A DNA stretch of 64,000 nt from Zymoseptoria tritici IPO323 (Eukaryota; Ascomycota; Dothideomycetes; Mycosphaerellales; Mycosphaerellaceae): positions 1,240,001-1,304,000 of the forward strand of contig NC_018217.1 in the NCBI RefSeq assembly GCF_000219625.1. Direction: 5' to 3'. A program made the position numbers and the translations under genes. Positions 4,765 to 24,345 of the stretch are shown one piece after another (within the stretch, counting starts at the first letter, position 1; each line of letters opens with the position of its first letter). Below the pieces are notes generated by a model. That model saw nothing but the letters and a program-made list of their open reading frames with translations, made no database searches and had not been told where the DNA came from.

Positions 4765-4965
4765 ATGATCAGGTCCTCTTTTCGTTCCATCTGGAAGATT
4801 GCGAAGTGGCCTTTCCTGCTGACACTTCCCGTCACCTTTCTACCATTTCTTCTTGCATCAATCAGCGGCATCATATTCGCTTTCTGGAACGATGCTCTTA
4901 TATACGACAATACCGACAAATGGCTGTTGGAAGTCAAGGAGCTTATGGGCGACTGGGGCGTAGGC
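4765..4965 (+). pseudogene. 5' part of a membrane-protein gene broken by the transposon nest
   Basis: From ATG 4765 the frame starts MIRSSFRSIWKIAKW, runs through one strong membrane segment (LPVTFLPFLLASISGIIFAF) and ends GDWGVG where the outer transposon begins. The frame resumes at 23147 with GNAPTFRQFQDTHNDF. Joining the two sides after removing one target-duplication copy gives ...GAC TGG GGC GTA GGC GGC AAT GCC... with no frame change, so both pieces are one original gene. The remaining 5' piece reads into the transposon and stops at a TAG (4975-4977), leaving only about 70 residues. Family not recognised. A possible longer N-terminus upstream has no ATG in frame. Confidence 0.72.
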
Positions 4966-4988
4966 TATCTTATGTAGATCAGAACCGC
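4966..4988 (+). repeat. Left terminal inverted repeat of outer transposon
   Basis: Begins TATCTTATGTAG and ends AGAACCGC; exact reverse complement of 23114-23136. It extends one base outward (C4965) if the 8-bp target duplication is correct. The duplicated target copy is immediately left (4956-4965). Confidence 0.92.
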
Positions 4989-5034
4989 TCTGGGCACTTA
5001 TTCTCGCCTTAGGCTCGAATGTGCTCTACACGTA

Positions 5035-5130
5035 ACAGGCAAGCCTGTCGCCTTCGGCGATAGGCTTTTATACTAGACCCCTTTGGGGCTAGCGCCCCTT
5101 TCGGGGCAAACCTATTCCCCTTCGGGGCAA
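5035..5130. repeat. Subterminal hairpin cluster
   Basis: Several short palindromes stand in a row: ACAGGC-AA-GCCTGT (5035-5048), AAGCCTGTCGCC with GGCGATAGGCTT around a TTC loop (5041-5067), ACCCC-TTT-GGGGC (about 5079-5090), GCCCC-TTTC-GGGGC (about 5094-5107) and CCCC-TTCG-GGGC (about 5117-5128). Loops are mostly TTCG or TTTC/TTTG. Subterminal hairpins of this sort can serve as transposase or helicase binding sites; that role is inference. Confidence 0.7.
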
Positions 5131-5459
5131 GATTGTTTATATTAGAGGGCTCCGCAATAATTCTAGCTAATAGGAATAACAGGAGGAGGAAAGTGCCTAG
5201 AGGGTCTAAGCTAGTTTCTACACTGTTATATAAGGATGTCGTTATCTTTTCGGTAAAGAAATACTAAACTCCTTCTACTGTACCTAGTATTAAATATCCT
5301 ATAGTAGAATCTACTATATACCCTTAAATCCCTAAACTCTACGTATATACGCGTTTTTTTCCCCCGAAACCGACTAAAAACTATGCTAAACACGTCTAGT
5401 CGTCCTAACACGCCTTATCCTAGCAGCGAGCTTATAGTATACGCTAATTCTAACTTCGT
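5131..5459. other. Leader of outer transposon before the DUF6589-like gene
   Basis: AT-rich, RIP-altered sequence between the hairpin cluster and the first readable part of the DUF6589-like gene. No clear reading frame, promoter motif or repeat could be supported. The true N-terminus of the downstream gene could begin here. Confidence 0.4.
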
Positions 5460-8440
5460 TTCCCCCGACGCTACGCCTTAGGGTAGAACGTCTAGTTAGT
5501 CCTCGTCTGCTTCTCCCTAGTCGTCCCCCGATAGCGATATCGACAACGATATACACAGCCCTAGCGGAACCCTCCGGTTAAGACAGACGAGACGTGTAAT
5601 AGAGCGTAAGCGCGACGAGGTCTTATAGCAATTACGTAACTACCGCCTGTTAGTGCCTAAGTTCGTCGAGTCCTAGATTATTAAGGATAGCCGTAGGGCC
5701 GCGAGGCAACGTTCTTAGAAGATCGAAGAGAGAATTCGTATCGCTAGTTAGCAGTTTAAAAAGCTTTAGGGAAAGGGCGTAATCGAGAAGGAGCTTAATA
5801 CATTAATAAAACATGTTCCTATACTTAGGAGGTTTAGCGGCCCTAAGCCCTTAAGCTAGGCTAAAGGTAGCGAGCCTACTCCTTCGGGGCAGTATACATA
5901 GGGAGCTAGTAAGGGCAGTCGTAGTATATATGTCTAGCTGTATATAGAGGACGGCAGTAAAGAGGATAAGAATACACTGCCGGAGGCTAGCTCTAATACT
6001 TAGGGGGTAATACCTATAGCAGCGGGTATCGCTTCGGGGCAAATAGAGGGTAGTTAATTAGGACAGTCCGGTCTAGCTAGTAGTAACGGGGACGATTTAG
6101 AGCAGTCGGATAGCGAGGACGACGAGATGCGTCGGTACGTATAGCCCTACGCCTTCGTAGAGGTGTACGCTTTAATACGGCGCCTCGCCCTAACGTAGTA
6201 TAAACTGCTATCGGGGCTGCTCCGCAACCTTCGCAGCTCTCGTAAGAGCATAGAGCGCTACGAGAGGGAACTAGATCGCCGGATCTTTATATTTAGTGCA
6301 AACGTTCTCTACTCGCGGTATCGTAATAAGTCTAACTAGCTTGCTCGTATTATAGGTAATTACCTTACCCTTAATAGCCTTAACCGTAGGGCGCTAGATA
6401 TACTCGCGGGACAGGGTTTTGTATCTGGCTATTCTACTATTAACTAGGACCTCTACAATTACGCTAGAAGGCAGAAGGTACAGTTACCTCTTATAGTATG
6501 TCCTGTTTCTGCGCTAACCGGTCTAGTAAGAACTTATCCGCCTTTCTCGCATTTTAAATACATTTATTATATACGATAATATAAACTTTATAGACAGGGT
6601 CCGAGACTCTTCCGTATCGACCGGGGACGTTATAAGGAACCTTACTACTGCGTTAATAATTAAGAGCGACTACATCCCCGAGGGCGGTCTTACACAGGAT
6701 ATGTTTACGCCCTATACGGGTTTAAAACTAAAGGATGTATTTAACTCCCTACCGCTCTACCCCTGTAATAAGTACGCCTACCGATTGTCTATATATTATA
6801 TGCATTCCGCTATAATAGCGCAGTTCGGGGTTAATATTAAGCACTTAAGCAGTAACGATTTCGTCTGCAAACAGACGAAGTAGCCTAGGATTAGTAAGCT
6901 TCTACCTAGTAGGTGCAGATACTACCCTATCGGGGCGATCTTCTAGAACGAGGGTACTATCGACGGCACCGCCGTAGTGCACGAGGATATCTAGATTAAC
7001 AAGTTTAAGTTCGTAGTAGACGATCCGATATTCCGCAACCGCTTGTAGCTTATATATAAGGATTAGTTAACCGCTATGCGCATCCGCAGTATTAAGCAGG
7101 AGTTACAAGAGGCGAACTGTACCTTCGACCGCCGCGAATAGCTTATCGGGCCCTCCTTCTTCTTCTATACTATTATAAACCTCTGCTTTACCGTTAGTAA
7201 GCTCTTTTAGTCGTACTAGCCTAGTAGCATAGCTAACCTACACTCCGTCTAGAGTAACATTAACTAGTTCGGGGTAACTAACCTACCTAAGAAGAAGTTA
7301 CCGTACTAGAAGCTGCGGCTAGTAGTGCTCTAGGGCTATTAGGCTCGCGTTATATAGCTGTTCGTGTTAGCTATGCGGCGTAGGAGGTTAATTAGCTCGT
7401 ATAGGAATAACTATGCTAGACTTACTAACATTAACATCGTGCGAGAGGCTCTATAACACCTCTCGCCTAGGAGATACGTGTCTATTCTGTCCGACATATA
7501 CTAGCAGATACTAGTACTAGAGGCGTAGGCAGCGCAAGGAAAGGACCTAGACCTAGTGCGATTTAGCCCCGAAAGCAACTAGCCTAGCCCCGAAGCTACC
7601 CCTAACGACACGAATACCCGCAGCGCTACTACCCTTACGTTAACCCGACGTATGCATATTACCGAGCTTTAGATAACGCTCCGTTAGGCTACCCGCCGCA
7701 TAGATATTAGATACGTCGACCGGTATCTCGAGCAACTAGCTATTATATTTTTCGGGGCTAGTTAGAGCAATTACGGCAGAGAGATGCTATACTTCTAGTA
7801 GCTCCTCTTAAACTCGGCCCTAGTACTTTAGCAGGCGTTATTAGCTTATAGCTTCGTAAACATAGCTAGTCGGTATAGCAAAGGGCTTGCAGTAGACGAG
7901 CTGCTAAAGCTTAAGAATAGGCGGTATTAGAATAAGATAAAGGCCTACAAGAACTTAACACACGACGTCGACGCTATATTTATTAAAGTCGCTCTCTCTA
8001 CGAAAGCTATAGCGAAGTAGTATATATTACTTAAAGAGGAGTTCGGCACGAAGAACTTAGGAGGGCATTTATACAAGGACACTAGTTACGATACATAGGG
8101 TCTAGTACAGAAGCTCCTTAGGGGTTTTGCAGCCCCCCCGAAAGCAGGCTTTACTACCTATAGCACTATCGACAAGACGAGTATCCGTAACCCGTATACT
8201 AATAGACGCAACTTAATTAGAGCTTAGATCGATAAGTTTAATACTAAACACGTCGAGCGGCGGCATATAAGGGTCGCTGTAGTACCTAAAGTCGCCCTAC
8301 GCTATAATATAGACGGGCTAGAGGTTAATCTATTAGCCTCTTATAATATTAGTAAGGGTAATATAGACGATAGGGAGGTCCTACTACTTAATCCTAAGCT
8401 ATACTAGACGATAGGACCTGTGTTTACGCATTTCGTTTAA
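5460..8440 (+). pseudogene. DUF6589-family-like gene, candidate transposase, broken by RIP-type stops
   Basis: Reading TAG/TAA as former CAG, CAA or TGG codons, one frame runs through almost the whole stretch. Landmarks: Ser/Gln/Asp-rich N-terminus (about 5460-5570), a region with FSANVLYSRYRN followed by IIGNYL (about 6280-6370), YDNINFIDRVRD (about 6570-6610), IPEGGLTQDMF (about 6675-6705), LTAMRIRSIKQE then TFDRRE (about 7065-7140), and a C-terminal part with SNYGREMLYF (about 7770). The order yDN, then GGLrq, then LTa.RIRs and FDRREW agrees with what I know of fungal DUF6589 proteins, which are multicopy and of unproven function. A 31-nt segment 6496-6526 (GTATGT...GCTAAC...CTAG) restores frame and may be a very short intron. 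Being the most transposase-like gene of the element is inference. Confidence 0.7.
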
Positions 8441-8610
8441 ATTAATCTCTGTCGGGGCTATTGCTATACTTATTCTCGGTCTAAATTAACGCTTTTGGCA
8501 GTGCTCGTTAGTAATGCAGTCTTAATCTAAATAACGCTAGCCCTGCCTATTAAAAACCAATTCTAGCTATTAGGGCTAATATAGTATCTATCGGGGCTAA
8601 ACTAGCATAA

Positions 8611-9139
8611 TTATCTCGCTAAAACCGACGATCCGCGCTCGTCCTACTACTAAGGACACTACGTGTCCTTCTTCCCGCCGCTACCGCTGCTATCCTTCTT
8701 CCCGCTACTACCGCTACTATCCTTCTTCCCGCTGCTACCGCCGTCGCCCTTCTTCTCGCTACTACTACTACTACCTTTCTTGCCGAATAATTCGGACAGC
8801 TGCTGCTTCTTACTAGCCGACAGCTCCTTCTTACTATTATCCTTCTTGCTGCCGTCCTTCTTACTATCGTCCTTCTTGCTCGCATCCTTCTTATTAGAGT
8901 CCTTGCTAGAGTCCTTGCTAGAGTCCTTCTTGCTAGAGCTGCTACTACCGTTCCTACCGCCTCTACTGCCTTCCCCGCCTCTACCTATATTCCTACTATT
9001 GCCTCTACCGCGGCGACCCGAAGCCTAGCGCCTGTAGTACTAAAGGCGCGCCCTCTGCATGCCGTTGCGAAGTAGGAAGTTACGTATACCGATCTCTATA
9101 GCGCGGTCTATAACGATATTAGTTAGCGGCAGCCCGCGG
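8611..9139 (-). pseudogene. 3' part of transposon gene: basic, Lys/Ser/Gly-rich tail
   Basis: Continuation of the minus-strand gene that begins at about 17910; the chromovirus separates the two parts. Joining the strands across the CGCGG duplication keeps frame. This part starts with IVIDRAIEIGIRN, passes an Arg/Gly-rich stretch, then a long Lys/Ser/Asp/Gly run, part of which is encoded by 27-bp tandem repeats at 8666-8746 (SSGKKD-like units). It ends at a TAA (8611-8613). Such a tail would bind nucleic acid or be a disordered linker. The gene is tail to tail with the DUF6589-like gene. Confidence 0.6.
8666..8746. repeat. Three 27-bp tandem repeats
   Basis: Units 8666-8692, 8693-8719 and 8720-8746 start TCCTTCTTCCCGC. 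On the minus strand they encode a Gly/Ser/Lys/Lys/Asp pattern. Further degenerate TCCTTCTT-spaced units continue to about 8940. Confidence 0.8.
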
Positions 9140-9354
9140 TGTAAAAGGTGCAATTAAGGATAGAGTAGCAGTATGAATCACTTCAGAACAGACTCGATTC
9201 GATACTCTCTCGGAAGGAGGAGATTCTACGTATCCTTATACTACAGGCGCAATCTGGCTTAAACGAGCTTAAAAGGCCCTAGTAGGGGTGCATATGCCGC
9301 TAAGGTAGGGGATTAGATGCCGATTGTCGGTATTCGGCGGAGGCAGATGTAACA
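9140..9354 (-). repeat. Left LTR (3' LTR of the element)
   Basis: 215 bp, begins TGTAAAAGG and ends GATGTAACA on the + strand. No indels against the right LTR; nine transitions. Confidence 0.93.
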
Positions 9355-9639
9355 TAGCCCCCCTCCTTGCGTAGAGCGTCGCGCTCTAAACGGTTTTACC
9401 TCGAGTGAATTCTTTTTGGTGTTTGCCAAGTTTAATAGCCTAAGGCCTTAATTAGGGTCTACTGCGGCTTTAAAACTTAGGCTCGGATCCCTCGAGTTCT
9501 TCTCTTCTTTAATAACCTTATGCAGACTTAGTAAGTGTAACTTAATCCTATCTAATAGCCAAATAGGTCTAAAAGTGCCCCCCTAAGGGGCATTTGTAGC
9601 CTGTATAGTGCTAACGTAGCGTTTAGTTCCTTTCTAGCC

Positions 9640-10588
9640 CTATTTTCTACCGGACGTCCTCGAATTTTATCGAAAAACCGCTATTCTTACTAAACGACCC
9701 TATCCGCGACCGAACGAGCCTATTATAGCGCAACCCGCCTCTATCGCGACCTAACGTAAGCAATTCGCCGCTAACGGCATCTTTAAGGGCAATCCGTGCG
9801 TTAACTGCCTTAACAAGCCCTTAAACAAGGCCGATTTGGCCTAGTTCTGCCTCTTTGCGCGCGAATCGCCAGACAAGTAGGCAACTAATAATAAGGACGA
9901 ATATTACCTAAAGTGTTACAATTGCTCCAACCGCGATTGTTTCTAGGTATGTACACACAGGGTTAAAAGGGGGCTTTCGGGGGCTAATGTAGTTAAAAGA
10001 TGCCGGAACTAGTTAAAGGCGACATTACGAGGGCTAATAAGCTCCGTAGGGCCGCTATTGCTGCCGATAGTACCGGAGCGATAGCTGCGGCGGCTTGTTC
10101 GGCCTATAAGGCGGTCTACGTGCGCATTAAGGGGTATGTGTAGTTAGTTCGGGTCTGTTTAGCTCCGTTAACCCCCTTTTAGGCGCTTTAACTCCTTTAC
10201 CGGTGTTAATAGCCTCTATCTACACTAAGGCAAGGCCGAATTCGACTAGACGGGACCGCTTATGCTTGGAAAGCGCGAGAAGTTGCTCGCTAAGGAGGCT
10301 ATAAAGCGAAAGAGGGAGCTTGTAAGTATTTAGGTCCCTTCTTGCCTAAAAGTGCCCTACTAACCCTAACAGGGTAAAGACGTGCCTAACACCCCCCGTA
10401 AGCGACTTATTCTGGCCTAAGGATCTACCGAGGACCGCCTAAGGCGTCGCGTTCGGGCCCTTTCGGCCGCTCTAGACACCGTTTATACCCGTATAGGCGC
10501 TAAGAAGGGCTCGAAGGCCTCCGTTGTAGAGGGAGTGCTCCGTCCGACCGAGTACGACCTCTCTAGGGACCTTAAGCCTAAGGCATAA
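9640..10588 (+). pseudogene. Spliced gene antisense to pol, in the 3' region of the chromovirus
   Basis: Four exons on the strand opposite to gag-pol: about 9640-9946, 10000-10133, 10183-10321 and 10373-10588. Introns are GTATGT...AAAAG, GTATGT...TTTTAG and GTAAGT...CTAAC...ACAG, and all three junctions keep frame (phases 0, 2, 0). In-frame stops before the final TAA are all TAG or TAA and fit CAA/CAG codons changed by RIP. Exon 1 has a zinc-binding-like Cys pattern: CVNC, then FC, then CYNCSNRDC. Later exons are basic and helical (LMLGKREKLLAKEAIKRKRE). The start codon is not clear. No family recognised; function unknown. It could be an accessory gene of this retrotransposon family or a captured gene. 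Confidence 0.62.
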
Positions 10589-10995
10589 GTATGTAAGTGC
10601 TTTTTCGTATTTCTTTTGTCTCTTTTAGCCTCTTTTAGGCTCGTTTTAGGACTAATAGGTGCGGTAACGCCCGGGTTGTTTCTTTTTGCTGCGACTTGGC
10701 GACTTATAGATTAGATAGAATCAAAATGACTTTACTATGCTCGATTGTCTCTCGTTGTGTAATAATATCGTCCTTAGGGGCCTGTTTAGCCCCTAATTTC
10801 CCCCCCTAGGATTTTATTAGATTAAAATTCTTCTAAGGTAGAGAAAATTTTTAGGTAACTAGGAACCGGACTAAGGAGTTAGTATAGTATTAACTAGTGT
10901 CTTTAGGGCCTTAATAGTAACTAATAACGCGTTTGTATATCTATCGTACTAGTCTACTGCCCTTAGTACCTCCCGTACTTCTATTAAATGCTCTT
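10589..10995. other. Chromovirus spacer between pol end and antisense gene
   Basis: About 400 bases lying between the tail of the antisense gene and the end of pol, where the two converge. Rich in TTTTAG and TpA; no frame or repeat that I can support. Confidence 0.4.
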
Positions 10996-10999
10996 ATCG

Positions 11000-13900
11000 T
11001 AGTAGGGCTAATATAAGTCGTAGGTTCCTAAGTGTTTTTAGACGCGGGCCAGCCCTTCTACGCGATCCTGTACATCTATCTGCTGTGTTGTTTCTTACGC
11101 TTTAGGATCTTGTCTACTACGTAAACGTCGGGTTCCTCTAATTGGATCTCCTTTAGGCTATTCTAGGCCCGTTTGGTAATTTTAGCAGGTTTTTCCTCCT
11201 TTAGCAGGGAGATGTAGAACGTAGGATAGATGTTTATCGTTTCCGGCAGTTCCAGCGTGTACGCGACGTCGTTTACGACTCGCTTAATCCTATATAGGCC
11301 GACATACTTATAATCGAGCTTTTCCGACGGCTAGATAGACTTTAAATATCGAGTAGAGAGGTATATACGGTCGCTAACCTTGTACGTTTTCGTAGTTTTG
11401 CGAGCATTGTAGTATCGTGCGTATCTCTCCTATAACGTAGCTAGTCTTTTATATAGCGTTTTCTATAGGCCGATTACTCTATGCGCTATTTCCGCCGTAC
11501 TAGGAGCTTTGCCCTCTAATTAGGGCAGGTCGGGCTATCTAGCGGCAATTAGATCGCGAACGTTATATGCTTAGAATAGTATTACCCCTGTTGTCGCATA
11601 AACGCTATCGTTATAAGAGAATTCGGCTACCGACAGCATCTATGCCTAGTCGTCCTATTCGTAGTTATAGTACACTCGTAGGTATTACTCTAGCGTTTGG
11701 TTCTAACGTTCTGTCTAACCGTCCGTTTAGGGGTAATATGCGGTGCTTAGGCCCCTTCGGACCCTAAGGTAGTAGCAAAGCATGCTCTAGAACTTAGATA
11801 TAAGGATTAGTCCTCTGTCGGACGTAATTAACTTAGGAGTTCCGTAAAGGCGGAAGATTTCTCTTAGGAAGACCTCCGCGAGGGTTTCGGCGTTAATGTC
11901 CTTCTATACGGGAATGTAGTAGGCTATTTTGGACCACCTGTCTATAACGACAAGGATTAAGTCGTATATGTGCCCTATAAACGTACTTAGGGGCAGATCG
12001 GTAATAAAATCTAATATTAGGTCCTCCTAGGGCCCGTTTAGTAGAGCTTCCGCATAGAGTTCTCTATATAGGCTATGTCGCCGTAGCTTCGCCCTATTGC
12101 ATGTCTAGTAGCTGTTTACGTAGTCCTTAACATATTTTCTTATGTCCGGCCAGTAGAACGACCGTTACAACAGCTCTAGGGTCCGTTTAAACCTAAAGTA
12201 GCTAGCTAGGGGATCGTTATAGCACTAGCGGAGAGCTGCTAGGCGTACTAGGCCCGCAGGCACGTATAGTTTCCGTTTGTAGAAGAGGAATTCGCCTTGT
12301 ATAGCCTACCTTTAAGTCTATTCCGGCGGATCCGGGTTATTTATAGCTAGTTCGACTATCGATGCTATAGGGTTATGTTTCAGGCTTTCGCGTATTGTAT
12401 TAATTAGCGGGGAGTCTAATAATTCTTCTATTAGAGTGCTTGCTATTATGTACGTTTTACTGCAGTAGGTCCTGGCGAGCTACAGATAGTAGGTTATAAC
12501 TGCTATTATAGACTAAACGGGGCTAGATTCGGCCGTTATTCCCTTAGATAGACCTAGTTAGTACCGAAGGGTGTCTAATGTAGGAGCACTGTCGCTTTCG
12601 TTAATCTACCGTCCTAAGTAGTCCCTGTCTTCTAAGTCTAGGCGTCTGCTTACTCCGTCCGCGGCGGCATTAAGCGACCCCGGGTTATACGTTGTACGGA
12701 AGTCGACGTTTAACAGCTACTCTGCCTATCTTGCCTGTCTTCGGCTTAGTTACTTAGTTATTATAAACTATTTTAGGTTATAATAGTCTGTTAAGACCTT
12801 AATTTAGTGCGAAGCGCCCTTAACGTAGTGTCTCTAGTGCTTAAAGGCCTCGACTATAGCGAGAAGCTCTTAATCGTATATGTTATAGTTCCTTTCGGCC
12901 GCGTTTATCTTGCTAGAGAAGAAGGCTACTAGGTGCTAGTATATTTTGCCCTCCGTTTTATGCGGTTAGGATAGTACTGCCCCGACGGCGAACTTAGAGG
13001 CATTTGTTACGACGCGGATAGGCAGTTTTAGGTCGAAATGCCGCAAGATAGGCGCTTTAGTAAACCTAGTCTTTAACTGCTAGAATGCTTGTACTGCGTT
13101 AGGTAGGAGTTCGAGGGGAACTAATTCCTCCTTTCTCTGTCGGTGTCCTCCTTTAGTACTATTTAGGCCTCTTTCTGTTAAGCGGTTTAGTAGGCTAGCT
13201 ATACGGGAGAATCCCTTAATAAACTAGCGGTAGTAGTTCGCAAATCCGATAAAGATGCGAATATCCCTAACTAAGGCCGGAAGGGGCTAGTTAGCAATAG
13301 CTTAGATCCTTTCTGCCTCTATTTCGACCCCTTTTAGGGTTACTACGAACCTAAGGTAGCCGACTTGCTGCTTAAAGAACTCGTACTTTAACAGTTTAGC
13401 AAAGAGTCGGTGTCTTCTAAGTCTCTCGAGGACTATCCTAACGTGCTTCTTGTAGCTTTCGGCGTCTTGTAAGTATATTAAGATATCGTCGAGGTATACT
13501 ATAACATAGTAGTCTAGTAGGCCCCGGAGGGCGTAGTTTATGTATCCTTAGAACACTACTAGGGCGTTAGTTAGCCTAAACGGGACTATAGTGTACTTAA
13601 AGTAGCTATACCTCGTCCGAAAGGCAGTTTTCTACTAGTTACTCTCCTTAATTTAGATGCAATAGTACACATTTCGTATATCCAGCTTTATAAAGAACTT
13701 TGCCGGCGCTAACTAGTCTAGAGATTCCTAGACGAGGGGCAGGGCGTGTCTATTCTTAATAGTAACGGCATTAAGGGCCCTATAGTCGACGCACAGACGT
13801 AGGCCGCCGTCCTTTTTCTTTACAAAGAGGATGCCTGCCCCCGCTAGGGAGGTCGAGGGGCGGATCTACCCCTTCTCTAGGCTGTCGGCGAGGTAATTGC

Positions 13901-15840
13901 GCAGAGTCTCTAGTTCTGTTATAGAGAGGTTGTATAATAGGCCGTACGGGGCCTCCTTGCCTTCTTCGAGGTCGATACTAAGCTTATTCGGCCCCGTCTC
14001 GGGGAGAAGGGACTCGTTTCCTTCTACGAAAACGTCCGCGAAATCCGAGAATTCGCTTAGAAGTTCCGGTTCTTTTAGCGCGTCGTCTATACGTTAAGCA
14101 GCAAGGGCCTAAACGCGCCCCGAAGGGATGCCGGAGGCGTCCTTCTAGAACTCTTTAGGTAAGACGAGCCTAACCGGCCTCTATTATCTGCCTTTCGTCC
14201 CCTTCTAGGTAACGCTTTTACAGATAAAGTTTACTCTCGGGTTCTATCGTTCTAGCTAGGGCATGCCGAGGACTAGTTAGAACCCGTAGATTCTTCCGAC
14301 TACGAAGGTTTCTACACATCCTCTTATGTATCCTTAAGTGTCCGTTACTTTAAACAGGACGTAGCATTCTCCCTAAACAGCTATCCTCTAGCCGTTTAGT
14401 GCTATATATTAGGCCGTTTGCCCTAACTCGGGGCTTAGGCCTAGCTCTTTAGCTGCTATGTTGTCTATAAAGTTGCTTTGCGCTCTGTAATTAAGTAGTG
14501 CTTAGAGTGTCTTAGTCCTATTAGGACCCTACATCTCTACTTTAAGGCGTATTAGCCCTTCCCCTGTAGTTCGGGGAATTCCTCCTAGCTCGGCAGCCTT
14601 TCTTTAGGCCTCTAAGTACTAGACTTAACCCGTAGCGATTAGAGGGGATCTACTACGGGCTCTCCCTTTTCCCGACTAGTCCTTGTTAAGGCATTCCTAG
14701 CGCCGGTAGCCCTCTTTGCTATATATCTAGCAGGCAATAGCCGACTTCTCCTTATTAGCCGCCTTCGGGAGGGTTTTAGCGCTTCTCGGCCTACTCGGGG
14801 GCTTGTTATTTTTGTTTAGGCGCCTTCTATTAGTCTCGTCGATAGAAGTCTTCGCTAAGCGCTTTTTGTTAAATTCCTGTATCTGTCGGTACGATATATT
14901 AGCTCGTTCCTCCGCATTTACGAGGGTCGTAAGGGTAACTTAGCCCTGTTCGAGCCTATTTCTAACCGCCGGGGTAAGAGCTCCCTTAAATTTATAGATC
15001 ATCCTAGGAATGTCGGTACAACCGATCTTATCCTACTATTCTTTTAGGTAGTTTATTAGCCCGGTTAGGGTCCTGTCGCCCTGTTTGGCCTCTTTAATAT
15101 TGTCTATAGCTCTTTAGGTGCGTTCGTCTTTTGTACCTATAGAATCTAACATTACGAGCTGCATATCGCTCTATATTAGCCGAACAGGTGCCTTGTCGAG
15201 AAGGTAGCGCTTCTAGTGCTGCTTTTAGGGTCTCGCTATCTATTCTTTAGCGAATTCTATCTTTTCTTCGTCGGTAGCTATACTAGCCCGGTTAATTGCT
15301 TAGTTAATGTCTTCCTACTACTATTCCTAGTCGGCGCGGTTCTTTCCCTCGAAGATATAGGGATTCCAGGCTTTTAGGAGCGTGTTCTTAGGGATAGATA
15401 GCCGAACTAGGGCATTAGGCAGGACAGTAGGGATAGATCCGTTCTATACCTAGGCGATGCGGTCCCTTATAGCCTTATTGCGTACCTAGAGAAGGCTAAG
15501 CTAAAGGAGGCGCTCCTGTCTAGCGGTAGCGGCCTCTTCCTTACAGATTTGTTTATTAATATCGTCTTCTTCTCCCTTAGGTAGAGTGTCTTCTTCCTAT
15601 AGAGGGTTCTCTAGTTCTTCTTCGCCCTCGTTAGCGGCATCCTAGTGCCTAATAAGTTCTTCCGGGTTTTTAGGCCCGCCTTTAGCGTCTTCGTCGTCGC
15701 TAACGATAGTCTAAGTAGAGGTTTCTATAGTCTCTAGGTCGTTAGCGGGTTCGTTCGTATAGCGACGGGTGCTCTTGCTCCCTAATAGGCCGGGACGAGA
15801 CGAAGCTATCTCGGAAGTAATTCGTCGTGCTATAGGGTAG
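11000..15840 (-). pseudogene. Gag-pol polyprotein of the chromovirus, RIP-degraded
   Basis: Read on the minus strand with TAG/TAA as former CAG/CAA/TGG. A Gag-type zinc knuckle (C..x..SKEGYRRxEC) lies at about 14690-14740. Reverse transcriptase has the active site VYLDDILIY (13472-13505). Integrase shows CNRAKLRRHSLY, then DFITDLPLSTFIG and LILVVVDR, and ITSDRG (about 11790-12120). The C-terminal end is VYVVDKILKRKKQHSR followed by MYRIA (about 11040-11140), which is a chromodomain and places the element among chromoviruses. Order gag-PR-RT-RNaseH-IN-chromodomain is that of Ty3/gypsy. Many stops make it inactive. Confidence 0.85.
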
Positions 15841-15851
15841 ATCGAATCGTA

Positions 15852-16066
15852 TATAAAAGGTGCAATTAAGGATAGAGTAGCAGTATAAATTACTTTAGAA
15901 CAGACTCGATTCGATACTCTCTCGGAAGGAGGAGATTCTACGTATCCTTATACTACAAGCGCAATCTAGCTTAAACGAGCTTAAAAGGCCCTAGTAGGGG
16001 TGCATATGCCGCTAAGGCAGGGGATCAGATGCCGATTGTCGGTATTCGGCGGAGGCAGATGTGACA
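15852..16066 (-). repeat. Right LTR (5' LTR of the element)
   Basis: 215 bp, begins TATAAAAGG (TG changed to TA) and ends GATGTGACA on the + strand. Followed by the CGCGG target copy. Confidence 0.93.
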
Positions 16067-16071
16067 CGCGG

Positions 16072-17910
16072 GGCACGGCGTTAGCGGCACTATTAGCAAA
16101 GAACGACTGCTAGCCGAGCTAGATTAGCAACTTATACTCTATGTTGCCGTTATTCTCGCGGACCTGCTATAGCTGCTCTTCCTACGTCTTATAGTTAGCG
16201 GCGCCCTTAGTCTTCTTAGAGGAAGCCTACTAGCTAATAGTCTTACGCATCTTGTATACGTACTCCTACTAAGTAGTTAAGAGCTTCTCCCGCTCCTCGG
16301 CTAGCTTAGCGACCTTCTCCTTGCTCGTATTATTAGCCTTTGCCTTTTCTAGCTCCTTAGTAGCGTAGAGAGCACGCTAGCGGAGGACTTCGAGCACGTT
16401 ATATACGTAGTTAAAGACGGTAGTGCTACTGTTCTAGAACCTGCCCGAGCCCTACGTCTTAGTAACTAGGGTGTACTACTTCTTACGTCCGGTTTTCTAG
16501 CTACAGTTGTCGTAGCCCTTCTGCTTCGGGGCACTACCGTTACTACCGAACATATTACTATAGTAGAACCTATTAGGGCGTACTAGCTTGTTCCTCTCGC
16601 AGATAAGCTTTAAGCACTCCGTACAGATCGTGCTATTATTAGACTAGACTTCCGGGATGTACTAGAGGCCCTCTAGCATATTATTAAGGCGGCGGTCGAT
16701 ATTATTAGTTAGAACCGAGTCGATATCTGCAGATACGATAGAGAGGGTTATTAAATTATCCGAGTCGTAGCGCATTATGCTGCTAGAGCCGCTTCGGGGC
16801 AGGTCGCCGTAGTTGCTACTAAGTTGCTATGTCCGCGAGCTACTAGCGGTGCGACTATATCCCCTCCTAAGCGTCCTAGGTAAGCCTACTAGTAAGCCTA
16901 GAGAAAGCGAAGTATCCGGAAGGAAGCTGCTACTACTGCTACTACTAAGGGGCGCGGCCTTAATAACGGCGTCGAACAACCGAACTCTAAGGACTAACGT
17001 CTCGGAACTACCGCTGCTACGCTCGTTACTAGCCCGGATAGGTCTAGAAGAAGTCGGCTTACCTAGCGTATTAGGGATGCAAGGGTTCCTACTAGTTAAT
17101 ATAGGATCGTAGTATCCTTAAATCGGGTTGTATGCGGTATTCCTAGGGTCGATTCCTACAAAGGTTACTACCCTATCTAGGTATTAGAAGGTTACGTACG
17201 GTTCCGGGGGTCGGCTAGGGGCTAGCCGAGGCGGAGCGCGAGGTACACCTAAGAAGGTTCGGCGCATACGATTAAAGCCCGTGCCCGCGAGGTTAAGGCT
17301 ACTAACGTTAGGCATATCGAGGGTAGCTGCAGTAGGAGGGGAGGTAGCTAGCGGTATACGTACAGACGGAGTTAGAGTAGATAGTAGACGAGTATCTGTA
17401 CGTAGGGTGCTCGGAACCTTAGGGATGTTGCCTATTAGGGAGAAAGGATTGCCGAAAGGGCTGCTAAGTAAAGGGGCCGCTAAAGGGGCGACAGAAGGAG
17501 CTATAATAAGAGGAGAGTTAGTGTCGGGGCTGCGCTAGATACTATCGGGGTAACTTACTCCGGCTACGAATCCGCTCGCGCTCGCTCTCTACGATTATGC
17601 GCTTAGTGTTATCTAGCGATTAGTATATCGACGAGCGTATTAGTAGCCTCGACGACGGACTAAACCTACGCAGGGCGTCCCTCGCATTCTCCACGGCTAT
17701 ACTAGTATATCGCTACCTCGTACTACGCTCTTCTTCCCTATTTAGCATACTACGCTTATAGTACTAGCGGTAAGTAGGACCGGGCGTAGTAAAGGGATTG
17801 CCTATTACGCCTCGTAGAGAGGATTCTATCCTGCTCTATAGTCTACGCTAGTTGTTGTCGTTGTCCTTCTCCTCGTCCTTCTCCTTCTACTTATCCTTAT
17901 CGGACTTGTT
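16072..17910 (-). pseudogene. 5' part of transposon gene: low-complexity and coiled-coil protein
   Basis: Minus-strand frame readable from about 17910. It begins with a Lys/Glu/Asp/Asn run, continues with MLNREEERS and IIVESERERIRSRSK, then a Pro/Ser/Thr-rich region (about 17530-17170). The later part has ICTECLKLICERNK, then a helical, charged segment (ELEKAKANN, KEKVAKLAEEREKLL, about 16255-16360) that should form a coiled coil. It runs into the CGCGG site of the retrotransposon and continues at 9139. Family not recognised. CTEC...C may bind metal. A frame change near 17540 may mark an intron. Confidence 0.5.
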
Positions 17911-18129
17911 GTTAGGTAGCGCTATAGCGCTAGCGCTAGCAGTAGGTATTATTAATAAAGTAGAAGAAGGAGAAAGAAGGGTAAAGAATAAGGTAGATAA
18001 GGAAGGAAGTAGATGTCGAAGTAGATGTAGAAGAGAAGGAGAAGGAAGAGGTATAGTCGATTATAAACTACTAACAGCTCGTCGTCGCCGGCCTAATTAA
18101 GGGAAAGAGGGCGGCGATTATTTACCTAC

Positions 18130-19121
18130 GAATTTACGTACACTAGCACATATACAGACATACATGCACCGGATTATACGACAATACTATAATTACGTAG
18201 CGTGCATATGCGGTATATTATTAGCGGAAGACAACGACATTATATAGAAATGCATATACTGCCCTGTGTTTACCTAAACCTCGCAGGCTGCAGAGTTAGT
18301 AAAGGACTTAGCTACCTAGTACGCTCGCGGCGACAGCTTTATATGCTAATAGTGTAAGGGAAGGTATTCTACGACGCGAGAGTACCCTATAGTAGCTAGT
18401 AGACGATATGTAGTAGCGAAATATATAGGCGTTCCCCTCTCGTATATAACAGTAGGTAACGTTAGCGTTAGATCGACGCCTAGCTTACCCGATATAGTAT
18501 ACTGCGCACGGTCTAATAGTTAATGTTAATATTAAATCTCCTCGTCGAGGACTCGATATATACGATTTATGCGGTTAATGCCGCCCCGAAGGGCTACATA
18601 CCCGCCTGTTAGACTCCTTAGTCCAGTTATATATAAAGGGCGTACGCCTAAGAAGGCGAGGGACTACGAAGATAGGGCAAGGGCCGGCTAGCGACGCCTA
18701 AGAAGACGAGAGTTCACAACGACGACGACGACGATAGCGACAACGGCAACTGTAGAGTATATATGCGTCTTTATTTGCACTATATTCTCGAAGAAAGAAC
18801 CCTCGACTCTCTAGTTACCCCGAATACTAGCAAGTCCTTACTAATAGGGGTATTAGATAAGAGAGAGCATATTATAGCGGAGGTAGTAGATAACGACGCT
18901 CTACCGGTAGCAGTCCCTAAATACTAGGAAGACCTTACTAAGCCGACACGTACTAGCTAAGAAGAGAATTTATATCGAAGTATATATAATAGGCAGCCCC
19001 GAAAGCATATCGCTAGCCCCGAAAGAGAATAGTATTACAAGAATTGTTATTACCTCGCCGAAGGGCTAGATCTGCCTAGCGATCGACTATATAGATTCGC
19101 CCCCTTTAGAGTTAGCTAGCG
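18130..19121 (+). pseudogene. Cys-rich, zinc-binding-like transposon gene of unknown family
   Basis: One frame of about 330 codons, broken only by TAG/TAA. The N-terminal part has Cys pairs arranged as CICG, then CIYC about 15 residues on, then a third pair (ICxxC, followed by KGRYSTTREYP), which suggests a zinc ribbon-like fold. The middle is basic then acidic (a run of five Asp near 18720). The C-terminal half has HYILEERTLDSLV and LLIGVLDKREHIIAEV. Tail to tail with the next minus-strand gene (ends about 20 bases apart), which supports both being real genes. No recognised family. Confidence 0.45.
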
Positions 19122-19139
19122 ATTCCTACGCATTAGCCG

Positions 19140-20030
19140 TTAGTTCTGTCGAACCCTGTCGTCGTCGCTGTCGAGCAGCCTATACCTAAAGCCCTCCTTA
19201 GCTAGAGACTCTGCTACCCGGGGCGTAGTAGTAGTAGCAGTAGTAGTAGTAGGGTTTGCTCTTATCTAACTAGAAACAGGTAGCGAGGATAGTATACTAC
19301 CCGCCTTACCGCTATAGCCTAAGTCGAAACTCTAGCCGAGGTAGTTGTCTAGTTAGTTAGCTATATTAATCGTACTAGCGACTGCCTAAAAAGCGAGTAG
19401 AGCCCTGCCCTCTACGCGCTTCGCTATGTTCTTGTCGATTGCAGCTAGGTGTAATTTAGTACCGACTAGCAGTAAGTCGACTTTAGGACTATCCCCGAGC
19501 GGTACCTCGACGCCTAACCGGCTCTTGCTATGTAGCTAGCGAAGCAGCGATAGTTTAACGCGCTAGGGAATTAGAGTTGTCTTTATAGTTAACGCCTGCT
19601 ATGCAGTACGCTCGACCTCTGTACGCCGCTCTCGGATAAGGACTATCCTGCGTTTAGATTCGGGCATACTGTTAAGTAACACCTTTTAAGCAGCAGCGGC
19701 CTCCTGCTTATCGCGTTTCCGCTTCCTAATAGCGGTTTTGCGGGCTAGCTCGGCACTGTATTCGATATATGCTAATAGGACTACTTTGCGCAAGCCCCGA
19801 AGGAGAAGCTCGGAGCCCCGACATAGCTCGGAAGTTACTAGATCTCTCTACTACTCGTCCTGCTCTAACTACAGCCGCAGCGCCGATCTAATTCGCTAGT
19901 TAAGCAGAGCGAGCTTAAATACCTATTTCGTGCAGTTACCGTTGTCGCGAACGTTAGCCCTGTCGCGGAGGTTAAATTCGGCATATATACCCTAAGCTAG
20001 CCTTTCGGGGAGGAATATAGAGGGCGGCAT
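19140..20030 (-). pseudogene. Unknown basic-protein gene of the outer transposon
   Basis: From ATG 20028-20030 (MPPSIFLPERLA) a frame of nearly 300 codons runs to a TAA at 19140-19142, with only TAG/TAA interruptions. Visible: basic helical part (RKTAIRKRKRDKQEAAAA, about 19690-19750), IVLIRERRTEVERT, VDLLLVGTKLHLAAIDKNIA, and a Thr-rich low-complexity tract (about 19210-19255). No family recognised. It lies downstream of the helicase gene on the same strand. Confidence 0.42.
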
Positions 20031-20154
20031 TGTAAACTAGCGACCCTGCGCAGGGTATATACAATCGACGACACGCTCGCTCTATGTTAGGATTGCCTCG
20101 TGATAAGGCAGGGAAAGACTGAAGTAGGGAAGTATCGAACAATGGGTTTCAGAA

Positions 20155-20462
20155 TGTAACGACTCGATTCGTTAAAGGAGGGAATGGAGGAGGAGAGCCT
20201 CCTTCGCTATATACACAGCTACTGCTAGGTTCCATTCCCCTATCCTTTACTTCTCTCGTTATAAGCGGGATCGTCTGTCCCTTCGTAGCCCTTCGATCCT
20301 TATCGTTAGGCATTAAGAGGCAAGCTAGATCGGACTGCCTTAATCCGTACGCTGTTGCGCTCTTCGTAACTAGGATAGCTCGTTGTTGTGTTCTTCGAAA
20401 CTAGGTTAGCCTAGCTTAGGGGAGATGAGGCCAGACTGCGCTCACGTGAGGGGATCCTCACA
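20155..20462. repeat. Possible solo LTR or intergenic repeat
   Basis: 308 bp starting TGTAACGACTCGATTCG and ending with CTCACGTGAG (perfect palindrome) and GTGAGGGGATCCTCAC, closing ...CACA. The TG...CA ends and size would suit a solo LTR. However, the neighbouring 5 bases do not match as a target duplication, and no second copy is in the window. Confidence 0.25.
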
Positions 20463-20479
20463 CTCTATATTATAAGCAA

Positions 20480-22760
20480 TCTTAATGCAATCGCTCCTCT
20501 CCCCTTAGGCTTCCTAATGTCGTCTATAACTAGCTAGTATACAGGGTTATTAGCTACTAGATAAGGGTTGCAAGTCCGATTGTAATAGACTTCCGCCGGT
20601 ACTAAGGGCGGACGCTTAACGCACTCGTTCTCTAATAAGAGGTTATCCTATGCTGCTCGCCTATACAGAGCGTTAATAATAGCGTGCAGGTCGGGGTCTA
20701 TATACGCCCTCGATTTAGTTTAGCTCTTGTTAAAGAAGCGCGGAGGCTTAGGAATAAGCAATCTTTGCCGCGACGGTGCTAGTAAAGTAGGCTAGCTGCC
20801 CCCGTAGTTAGAGTCGCTAGCGTCGGTTTCGGGGTTAGAATTATTACCGTCGTCGTCGCTGCTATTACTCTCTACTAGCGGCGTAGTACACTCGTCGTAG
20901 TAGTAAGCGACTAGCCTACGCCGCTGCTAATACGTCCTACGCTTGCTTTTCGGGGTGCTTCCTAGCGCCGGATCTCCTAGTCTCTACTGCCCTTCTAAAT
21001 CGAATACCTACGTAGGGAAAAAACCATAGCACTGCGTACGATGCCCTACCTGTAGATCTCGCCTACCCTGACCGAATCGCTAGTAAAGGTTTATAATATA
21101 GTGCTCTAGCAGCATCTTCTACTAGATAATGCAGTATATACGCGGGATGTTAATGCTTATATATAGCGCGGTAGTAGCTACGAAGATTCGAATAGTAGAA
21201 TTATCCGTGTAGAATGCCTTGTACCGAAGGGTCTAGTTATAAGCGGATATACTAGACGAATACATCTGCACTACATTAACAACATAACGAGGGCTACCGG
21301 CAGAGTCCTAGACGTATCGGTCTCCTTTAGGGGAGGTAGCGGTTATAGCAACTAGCTACGCCCGGATGTAGTTTATTAATACTACGACTTTAATGCGACT
21401 GTCTGTAAAGATAATTGTGCATAGGATACCCTACGGCGTCGCTATGCTGTTAGTCTTATACCTAGTAATAGTAAAGTACAACTAGGCGAACTTAGAAGCC
21501 TTGCTACGGATAATTAGCTTAAAGATATAAGTATAGTCGGTGTAGTTAATCGAACTCCTATATAGCTAAGTCTGCCGTACGCTAGCCCCGAAAGGGCGGA
21601 AACCCCTATTAGTAATTACATAGTTCTAAGCCTTCTTTGTTAAGGTCCTAGTGCAACCGAACTACTAAGTATCGGGGGAAACAAGCTGTCTTAGCTAGCC
21701 TAGCTAAAGGAACTATAGCCGGAAGGACTCGCCCTACGAGTATAATAGATACACCTCGTCGATAGATACTAAGCCGATCTAGCTATAGATATAGTTATTC
21801 CGAAGCATAGCCTTAAAGTTATTAGAAACCGCCTATTTAGGCCTAAGCACGATATAGTTATACTTGCTAGCCTCTATATTAGAGAATAGGTTAGGGTTGT
21901 TACACTTCGTAATAGCCGTAATTAAGTAGGACTTTAGTAGGTCGGGGGTAATGCGAGTAACATCTAGGTGCTGCTCTTTACCGAGCTTACTAAGAGGCTC
22001 TACCTAGAAGGTAATGCAGCCGGTAAGTATAGTAAATGCTTAGAACACGAGGCTTTTGCTAATACTAGTGCGGGCTACGAACAGTATATCCTAAGACGCG
22101 AAGATTAAAGAATAGAGCACATTAACCTGCTCGCGATAAGGCTTTTAGGGCGGCGTAGTCGGATTTAAAGCAGCTAGTATCTAAGTAAGACCTGCTTTAA
22201 TTACTTAACAGTAAAAAGCGTAGTATCTAGGCTTCCTTATATAGGCAACGAGGGTACGGAGCTCGACTAATGTTATCCCCGGCACTGCGGCAATATGTGC
22301 CCTAACGTCTGCTACCTCTTCTGCCCCGAGGGGGTTATCCTGCTCTTCTGCCCTAAGGGGGTTATCCTGCTCTTCTGCTACTAGTAGTAGTAGTTATAGG
22401 GAAGGGTTGTAGAAGTTGCCCTATAGACGCTACTTCGCCTACCTACGCTACTTCTTAGTAGTCGACTCGAAACGCCTAAAGATTCGAATCTGCTCGCTAG
22501 TACGACCTAGCTACGAGGAATAAGGGTTGCGTAGCCTAGGGCGGGGGGTCCCTTCGGGGTTAGCGGTTCCTAGGTTAGGGCAGCGACGAGAGCCGTTAGC
22601 TACAGCGGAGGAACGTAGAGGCAGTCGGCGGACGTTAGGATAGATAGTAGCAAAGGCTACGCGGGTGTTAGGGGTCGCTATAATATGCTAGTGTTACGTA
22701 GTCGTCGTCGTCGGGGGAAGGGTAGTAGCTTTCGGGGCAAAACGCGCTTAGATAGTAAAT
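20480..22760 (-). pseudogene. RecQ-like DNA helicase of the outer transposon, RIP-degraded
   Basis: Minus-strand frame with TAG/TAA stops only. Helicase motifs in order: motif I ARTSISKSLVF (about 22045-22095, Walker A with Ser for Gly), motif Ia-like region VEPLSKLGKEQH, motif II SIDEVYLLYS followed by GESFR (about 21750-21775), a motif IV-V region with IRIFVATTALYISINIP, and motif VI LYQRFGQGRR (about 21063-21095). These are the ATP-binding and unwinding motifs of RecQ-family SF2 helicases, closest in style to fungal telomere-linked RecQ-like helicases. N-terminal part (about 22400-22760) is Pro/Thr/Arg-rich; a duplicated AEEQDNPL unit is seen near 22335. C-terminal part has an acidic Ser/Asn/Asp tract (about 20830-20880). 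In a TIR element the protein could process DNA ends or replication intermediates; that is inference. Confidence 0.75.
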
Positions 22761-23113
22761 AAGGACTAGGTCGGGGCGCGACGAGCAAGAGGGCTAGCGC
22801 TATTAAACTTAGTATATACGTATATTAGCGTATTTTATAAGGACTTACTATAGGGTAGGATGTTACCTAGTTGTCGGAATAAGATATCGCGTATATAGTG
22901 TCGATTTTAGACGTGTTTAGGGCGCTTAGATAGTTAAAGTATGCAAAACTAGCTTAGACCCTATATAGAGTGTTCTCTCGTTAGTCCGTGCATCCTATCT
23001 ATACTACTTTCGGGGCTAGGTTAGAGTCTATCGGGGCTAGCTATAACTTAAACCCTCCCTACTTACGTGCTGCTGTTGCACGTAACGACGACGAGAGAAA
23101 AACGCTCTGTATG
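22761..23113. other. Right subterminal region of outer transposon
   Basis: No gene. Contains two TTCGGGGC/ATCGGGGC motifs close together (23009-23016 and near 23030) and a perfect 8-bp inverted repeat TTACGTGC/GCACGTAA (23063-23070, 23078-23085) about 30 bases inside the terminal repeat. CACGTAAC also occurs near the left end (about 5028). Confidence 0.55.
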
Positions 23114-23136
23114 GCGGTTCTGATCTACATAAGATA
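23114..23136 (-). repeat. Right terminal inverted repeat of outer transposon
   Basis: Exact reverse complement of 4966-4988, followed by the second target copy GGGCGTAGGC (23137-23146). Confidence 0.92.
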
Positions 23137-23146
23137 GGGCGTAGGC

Positions 23147-24345
23147 GGCAATGCCCCGACGTTTCGCCAATTCCAGGACACCCACAACGACTTCCGCACC
23201 ATGCGCATCAATAGCAACGACTTCCTAGAGAAGCTGGACTTTATACTTCCGGAGCAGTACTATGACGATACTGGAACGCCCACGGAGGATCTTCCCATCG
23301 ACAAATATGCCGACATTGAAAATCTCGTGAGGGATACATCTCCTACAGCGAGATGCGGGAAGCCAGAGAAGCCGCGAGAGCAATGGCTGTATCTGACAGA
23401 CTATGGCTCTCGTTACTTCGAATGGGACGAGGACTTTCGCGACGCAGTACAGTTTGCACAGGGTGATCTTAAGCTCAATCAGACCGGGTTGTACTTTGCA
23501 CAATGCGGGCGTAGTGCAAAGTTTCTCTGTGGTAAGTACAACAGCTCAGTAAGCATCCAATTTTCATGAGCGGACAGCCTAGTGGAATCACAACCAAGTC
23601 TATGCTAATTCGGGTGGCACTCAGGTGTTTGGAATACAAGGAAACCAGCTCTGGTCCATTTCCTCGTGGAAGACTACCCTCTCGATGCGTTGGAGACGGA
23701 GGAAAAGGGCTTCTCGTATGCAGGCGATATGCGCTATCTGCGGCCTGTCACTGTTCGCATCATCGAGTTTCCACTCGAAGGTCAATATACCGGTCTGCCC
23801 TGGACAACATTTCCCAGCAACGAACACAAATGCTATCCATCATGACTGGAGATCATTTGTACGAGCAATTCGAGCCATACGACCCCTTACAGCAGATGAT
23901 TACACGATTCTCCGAGCACATGGACAAGGCGTACTGGAATAACAACTGGCACATCCTTCACTATCTGAACGAGCTCGAAGATCTCGTCCAAGAATATCTC
24001 GCGGCTCCGTTGGGCTTGAGCGGTGTTGTGACTTCGATATACCAATTGTCGTTCATTCTGACAGGTAATGCGGTCAGCCTGTGCATCATAGGACCGCTTG
24101 GACTCGTGAAGGAGATCATGGGCGCGTTCTTGGGCAAGCCGGCCAGAGGCGATGCGATCCTTGGCGACGCTGGACGAGACTATTCAGGAGAGCCCACGAA
24201 CATACTCAACGACTGGTTCAGCGGTCTCCTCGGGGCATTCATTGCCAATGTGTCAGACGAGCTCGCTGCTGAGTCGAGCAAGAGTGTCATGCAAAGCGCT
24301 TCGATGACTGGACATTCCACTAGTGTAATGCCCAGGACGAGTTGA
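23147..24345 (+). pseudogene. 3' part of the membrane-protein gene split by the transposon nest
   Basis: The frame enters directly from the target duplication (GNAPTFRQFQ). Exon to about 23531 ends AKFLC; an intron of about 93 nt (GTAAGT...GCTAAT...CTCAG, to 23624) leads into GVWNTRKPALVHFLVEDYP and RPVTVRIIEFPLEGQYTG. Near 23830 this frame ends at a TGA and coding-like sequence continues in another frame (from 23828: MTGDHLYEQFEPYDPL, to stop 24345) with a membrane segment around IYQLSFILTGNAVSLCIIGP. Either a short intron or a frameshift joins them. The family is not recognised. Together with 4765-4965 the original product would have had at least two membrane segments. Confidence 0.65.

Follow-up and report, generated by a model that had tools for sequence, protein, structure and literature searches.

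Helicase-carrying DNA transposons are already known from fungi, since AcademH, fungal Academ copies with recQ_fam domains and KolobokH have been published. For AcademH, papers citing it give target-site duplications (TSDs) of 9 or 10 bp, compared with 3 or 4 bp for AcademX (PMC10045372), and an occurrence in Basidiomycota, Ascomycota and Mucoromycota (PMC10799480). Recognizable domains, e.g. DEAD/DEAH helicase and recQ_fam, were listed for 81% (1,568/1,938) of fungal Academ copies (PMC6416283). KolobokH carries a RecQ helicase and is reported from fungi only (PMC9587614). TSDs of 8 bp are described as typical of hAT elements, among them a histone-carrying hAT of Pseudocercospora fijiensis with 20-bp terminal inverted repeats (TIRs), an 8-bp TSD, a length of ~9.5 kb, damage by repeat-induced point mutation (RIP) and the domain DUF659 (PMC6710886). 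Here we describe a RIP-damaged TIR (class II) transposon at positions 4965-23137 of a 64,000-nucleotide stretch of the Zymoseptoria tritici IPO323 genome (contig 2, 1240001-1304000; hereafter the window), with predicted genes for a DUF6589 protein and a RecQ-like helicase. We estimate a probability of about 80% that this is a RIP-inactivated TIR transposon with DUF6589 as its transposase and kin to AcademH. The most suitable reading of its family is an AcademH-related lineage that duplicates 8 bp and has convergent genes.

The two ends of the element form a perfect 24-bp inverted repeat, as the initial annotation had proposed with coordinates one base short at both ends. The copy in the window is 18,173 bp long because a long terminal repeat (LTR) retroelement is nested inside it. 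Without this insert of 6,927 bp the body measures 11.2 kb, and a copy on C5 that is free of it has 11,126 bp, in agreement with the element of ~11 kb first suggested. The retroelement, which has a 5-bp TSD and is itself RIP-damaged, was inserted after the transposon. The RIP index TpA/ApT was 2.07 for the element versus 0.55 for host DNA.

We screened the assembly (39.7 Mb in 21 contigs) for the 24-bp TIR with up to 3 mismatches and used the reversed sequence as a control. This yielded 18 sites versus 0 for the control, which resolved into seven pairs of ends facing inward and four ends without a partner. All seven paired copies showed an exact 8-bp duplication directly outside their ends. The duplication had initially been given as 8 or 10 bp; the longer version requires that the element lose one base on either side and fits one of the seven pairs, the window copy itself, by chance. 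Four of the seven are long copies and three measure about 0.87 kb. In the long copies the DUF6589 and helicase genes contain many in-frame stops, and the family is therefore probably inactive in this isolate.

The evidence for a common mobile unit extends beyond this family. Neighbouring matches to the two genes were merged into 40 DUF6589 and 39 helicase loci, and partners were accepted at a distance of up to 25 kb. A helicase was found within this distance for 38 of the 40 DUF6589 loci, where a simple estimate expects ~2. In one of these pairs (C3:1990108), a piece of a window-family element lies next to the helicase of another element; as this is a chance neighbour, 37 apparent real pairs remain. 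The proposal that the two genes travel together was thereby confirmed, and the case named as its refutation, DUF6589 and the helicase housed in distinct elements that differ in their ends, was not encountered. Partnerless loci were rare, namely C18:474716 and C3:1594739 for DUF6589 (2/40) and C12:538845 and C18:374223 for the helicase (2/39), the last being 58-66% identical to the helicase of the window in three matched pieces. Gene order was tandem with the helicase first in 29 pairs, convergent in eight and divergent in one, the chance neighbour. The convergent loci comprise the four long copies of the window family, in which the helicase gene sits within the TIRs, and loci on C18, C1, C3 (C3:1572767) and C7.

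Pfam lists DUF6589 as a family of unknown function; a literature search with its name and two identifiers returned no paper on it. The domain was recognized in the window with an E-value of 2e-30 (PF20231), in a gene interrupted by 28 TAG codons and one TAA. A DUF6589 protein from another isolate, Z. tritici ST99CH_1A5 (P0001; 90% identity over the 40% of the query covered), bridges both frames over a short gap, consistent with an intron. It has a stop-free frame of 625 residues and ends where the C5 copy carries a stop. In an alignment of 35 rows, the acidic residues D328 (24/25 rows with a residue), D497 (35/35) and E764 (34/34) were conserved, as expected of the triad of a DDD/E transposase. 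E720 is conserved as well (33/34), and the catalytic glutamate could be either of the two; the C5 copy has all four residues. No other transposase domain was found by Pfam in the scanned frames of the window element. We infer from the helicase linkage and the conserved D, D and E that DUF6589 would be a DDE transposase. It is the best transposase candidate of the element and a strong one, in line with the role first proposed for it. The linkage, the target duplications and the exact ends suggest a job for this family, and multicopy fungal genes of unknown function become recognizable as mobile elements.

For the second gene, the best matches among solved structures were 7a8r, an ATP-dependent DNA helicase (E 6.6e-7), and helicase Q5 (E 8.8e-7). 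It matched RecQ5, WRN and RECQ1, with an E-value of about 1e-6 for the RecQ family, and the Pfam helicase match of the window gene lay below threshold (E 0.066). The gene has 45 relatives in the assembly. The C5 copy encodes a DEVH-like motif II followed by FRLQF. The helicase that characterizes AcademH is therefore also a feature of the window family.

The tandem loci that we examined, grouped as B1 and B2, have other ends, which begin with TAGTCTCAG. This pattern matched 45 sites on one strand and 56 on the other versus 11 and 6 for a control, and pairs of positions were drawn from among the matches listed. In B1, all copies found with both ends (11/11) showed exact duplications of 9 bp. In B2, nine long and two short cases were chosen from the listed pairs rather than taken from every pair, and 10 of the 11 duplications were exact with one mismatch in the other, so that 21 of 22 were exact for the B set overall. 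Where free of large inserts, B1 and B2 elements measure 11.6 to 13.7 kb. The two short cases, at C1:4509625-4510045 (421 bp) and C7:1582623-1582745 (123 bp), are very short B-type derivatives with exact 9-bp TSDs. The B set resembles the window family in the presence of DUF6589 and a related helicase and in TIRs that start near TA. It differs in its 9-bp TSDs, its other ends and a helicase that shares the strand of DUF6589 and lies 5' of it, whereas the window family in the same genome has 8-bp duplications, ends of its own and convergent genes.

A tree of DUF6589 was built from 24 rows, 13 from this assembly and 11 of 39 proteins. The window family formed one clade (100/100) and the B set another (100/100). 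The former joined the convergent loci of C18 and C7 and the unpaired C18:474716 (98/96). The convergent locus of C1 was placed elsewhere, and convergent order as such is therefore not one clade. Deep placement on the tree is unsure because of RIP damage.

If DUF6589 acts as proposed, its product would be a transposase of the DDE type. It would bind to the 24-bp ends and connect them with target strands after cuts spaced by 8 bp. Copies of 0.87 kb would be mobilized in trans and would depend on the long ones. The helicase might help by opening or resolving the ends or repair intermediates.

Several points weigh against a RIP-inactivated relative of AcademH moved by DUF6589. The role of the helicase is the weakest step of the mechanism. 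Profile searches of DUF6589 against solved structures gave two matches with E-values of 0.15 and 1.4 in one case and none in the second. At the convergent loci of C18, C1 and C7, three of the four outside the window family, we looked for TIR ends and found nothing convincing. The TIRs of the window family resemble those of the B set weakly, with 36 to 57 of 5000 shuffles as good for three B ends and 1417 of 5000 for the fourth; shared ancestry of the window-type and B-type ends is no more than suggested. Finally, the window family shares with AcademH, as portrayed in the citing papers, the nature of a DNA transposon with a helicase in Ascomycota, but its TSDs were 8 bp in 7/7 copies compared with the 9 or 10 bp given for AcademH. 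For this reason we label the window family AcademH-like instead of assigning it to AcademH. The B set agrees with what is given for AcademH in both features compared, the helicase and the 9-bp TSD. The initial claim of a candidate new transposon family does not hold for a wholly new kind of element, given the published AcademH and the 9-bp sister set; the window family looks like a variation on a helicase-carrying kind already described.

The RecQ-like helicase, the fungal host and the 9-bp sister set would equally suit a window family that is simply another AcademH family, whose 8-bp duplications come from an under-sampled range and which represents no separate lineage. We regard this as possible, though short of probable, in view of the 8-bp TSD in every paired copy, the convergent instead of tandem order and the separate clade on the DUF6589 tree. 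We think it unlikely that DUF6589-RecQ elements form a superfamily of their own outside Academ, with one transposase type having diverged into lineages that duplicate 9 bp and 8 bp. In both kinds of ends, the distance from the shared TA to the outer limit of the duplication is 9 bp, made up of a 9-bp TSD flush with TA in the B set and of an 8-bp TSD plus one terminal C in the window family. The lineages would therefore have the same target geometry, and the cut at the end would be displaced by one base between them. With both lineages present in one genome, the control of duplication length and the role of the helicase become testable.

Highly improbable is an origin from a hAT or Zisupton/KDZ element that merely captured DUF6589 and the helicase. 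The 8-bp TSDs would fit, as they are typical of Zisupton as well as of hAT. The hAT of P. fijiensis as described above is also similar in its TIRs, its length and its RIP damage, but it has the hAT domain DUF659, which was not found in the window element. No hAT, KDZ or Plavaka domain was among the Pfam matches with E-values up to 1 for the window pieces and the 35 DUF6589 rows. The DUF6589-helicase pair is also present between other ends, an outcome not expected of capture. A KolobokH-like element, for which the RecQ helicase and the reports from fungi would speak, is scarcely credible in view of the unlike arrangement of transposase and helicase and of duplications none of which (0/7) is TTAA, the target duplicated by Kolobok elements.

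The RIP-inactivated transposon that we favour is documented in Table 1 together with the other features of the locus and its relatives in the assembly.

Table 1. Coordinates of the element, its predicted genes, the interrupted host gene and further copies of the family (positions in the window unless a contig is given).
Feature	Position	Strand	Remarks
Host gene, left part	4765..4964	+	function unknown
Left TSD	4957..4964	.	GGCGTAGG, 8 bp
Left TIR	4965..4988	+	24 bp
DUF6589 gene	5383..8440	+	two exons, intron near 6545-6580; TAG/TAA stops in the frame
Candidate gene E, far part	8620..9138	-	severed by LTR retroelement; continues the 16083-17801 frame in C5
LTR retroelement	9140..16066	-	not part of the transposon; LTRs ~213 bp, 96% identical; TSD CGCGG
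Candidate gene E, near part	16083..17801	-	Cys-rich stretch; long frame in C5
Candidate gene D	18191..18970	+	two CxxC pairs; zinc-finger matches sub-threshold
Candidate gene C	18960..20060	-	without known domain; frame common to C14 at 57%
RecQ-like helicase gene	20480..22750	-	frame broken by 33 TAG and 6 TAA
Right TIR	23114..23137	-	24 bp
Right TSD	23138..23145	.	GGCGTAGG
Host gene, right part	23138..23569	+	relatives P0037-P0039 cover the site
Long copies	window; C3:1845502-1858432; C5:2307302-2318427; C14:213644-250895		
Short copies	C6:2163386; C12:463099; C7:119455		868, 868 and 884 bp
Single TIR ends	C3:1992422; C11:8590; C6:2665869; C6:2659424		

The initial annotation had listed five genes with frames broken almost only by TAG and TAA. 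This pattern turned out to be an effect of RIP, and of the five predicted genes two are firm, two plausible and one unsupported. Over both strands, TGA has a density of 0.6 per kb in the element versus 18.0 per kb in the host. Of the 36 region-by-frame combinations of the window copy, 34 are free of TGA, whether coding or not. We therefore rejected TGA-free frames as coding evidence, since RIP depletes the entire element of TGA irrespective of strand. Instead, transversions between the window and C5 copies were counted by codon position, because RIP makes transitions. Counts at positions 1, 2 and 3 were 3, 1 and 11 for exon 2 of DUF6589 (11/15 at the third position), 8, 10 and 15 for its exon 1, and 15, 14 and 30 for the helicase (30/59 at the third position). 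DUF6589 and helicase are thus firm genes on homology plus transversion bias. Candidate C (10, 7, 14) and candidate E (3, 4, 4; no third-position bias) are plausible genes. Stops were also counted by frame. Within the copy that had suffered least, the proposed frame had the fewest stops for both exons of DUF6589 and tied for E and C. It was not lowest in the helicase region (31 versus 29), where the frame shifts. Candidate D (3, 1, 0) had neither frame nor transversion support and is unsupported as a gene. The far part of candidate E had no Pfam match; one weak match to this gene in the C18 locus, in a low-complexity stretch, was not counted.

Among the long copies, the one on C5 is colinear with the window copy in four blocks of 83-85% identity. 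The C3 copy (12.9 kb) has extra stretches, of ~0.87 kb (C3:1848860-1849731) and ~0.83 kb (C3:1850010-1850840; both approximate), that are absent from the window and C5 copies. The C14 copy reaches 37 kb. Its 8-bp TSD is intact, and among the insertions nested in it is one that resembles the LTR retroelement of the window. Compared over the gene regions, the C3 and C5 copies differ by 591 transitions and 5 transversions, the pattern expected if the copies share a recent origin and then underwent RIP; for window and C5 the same regions gave 1,001 transitions and 153 transversions.

The transposon was inserted into a host gene and split it. A Pfam scan of this gene gave no match above the cut-off, and a search with the right part returned three relatives among six candidates (P0037, P0038 and P0039). 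P0037 and P0038 align to the left part through GDWGV and then continue straight into the right part without a break, while the shorter P0039 lacks a few residues at the insertion site. Element and one TSD together comprise 18,181 bp, and therefore the two host frames are in phase. The restoration of the reading frame on removal of the element, as initially claimed, is thus borne out by the relatives and, by length, by the phase.

The convergent pair at C18:114411-123286 is less damaged, with a stop-free matched region of DUF6589 and one TAG per matched piece of the helicase. TIRs and TSDs were looked for in C18:106001-128000 and none were found; one end candidate with a 4-bp duplication and a 15/20 match is about what we estimate for chance. 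The pair may be a young arrival or a retained gene pair.

The ends of the window family and of the B set provide a key for annotating this genome. In 2014, a survey of the species listed three 'Helitron' families of 390,961 bp with 5' TA and 3' CTRR and reported no TIRs or TSDs for its non-MITE (miniature inverted-repeat transposable element) DNA transposon families (PMC4522978). B1 and B2 loci, e.g. C3:1996126-2007756 and C2:3572572-3586338, start with TA and end with CTA plus the first base of the TSD, and the 29 tandem loci, each taken as 11.6 to 13.7 kb, amount to about 0.36 Mb. Given the match in start, end and total length, the three 'Helitron' families may be B-type TIR elements.
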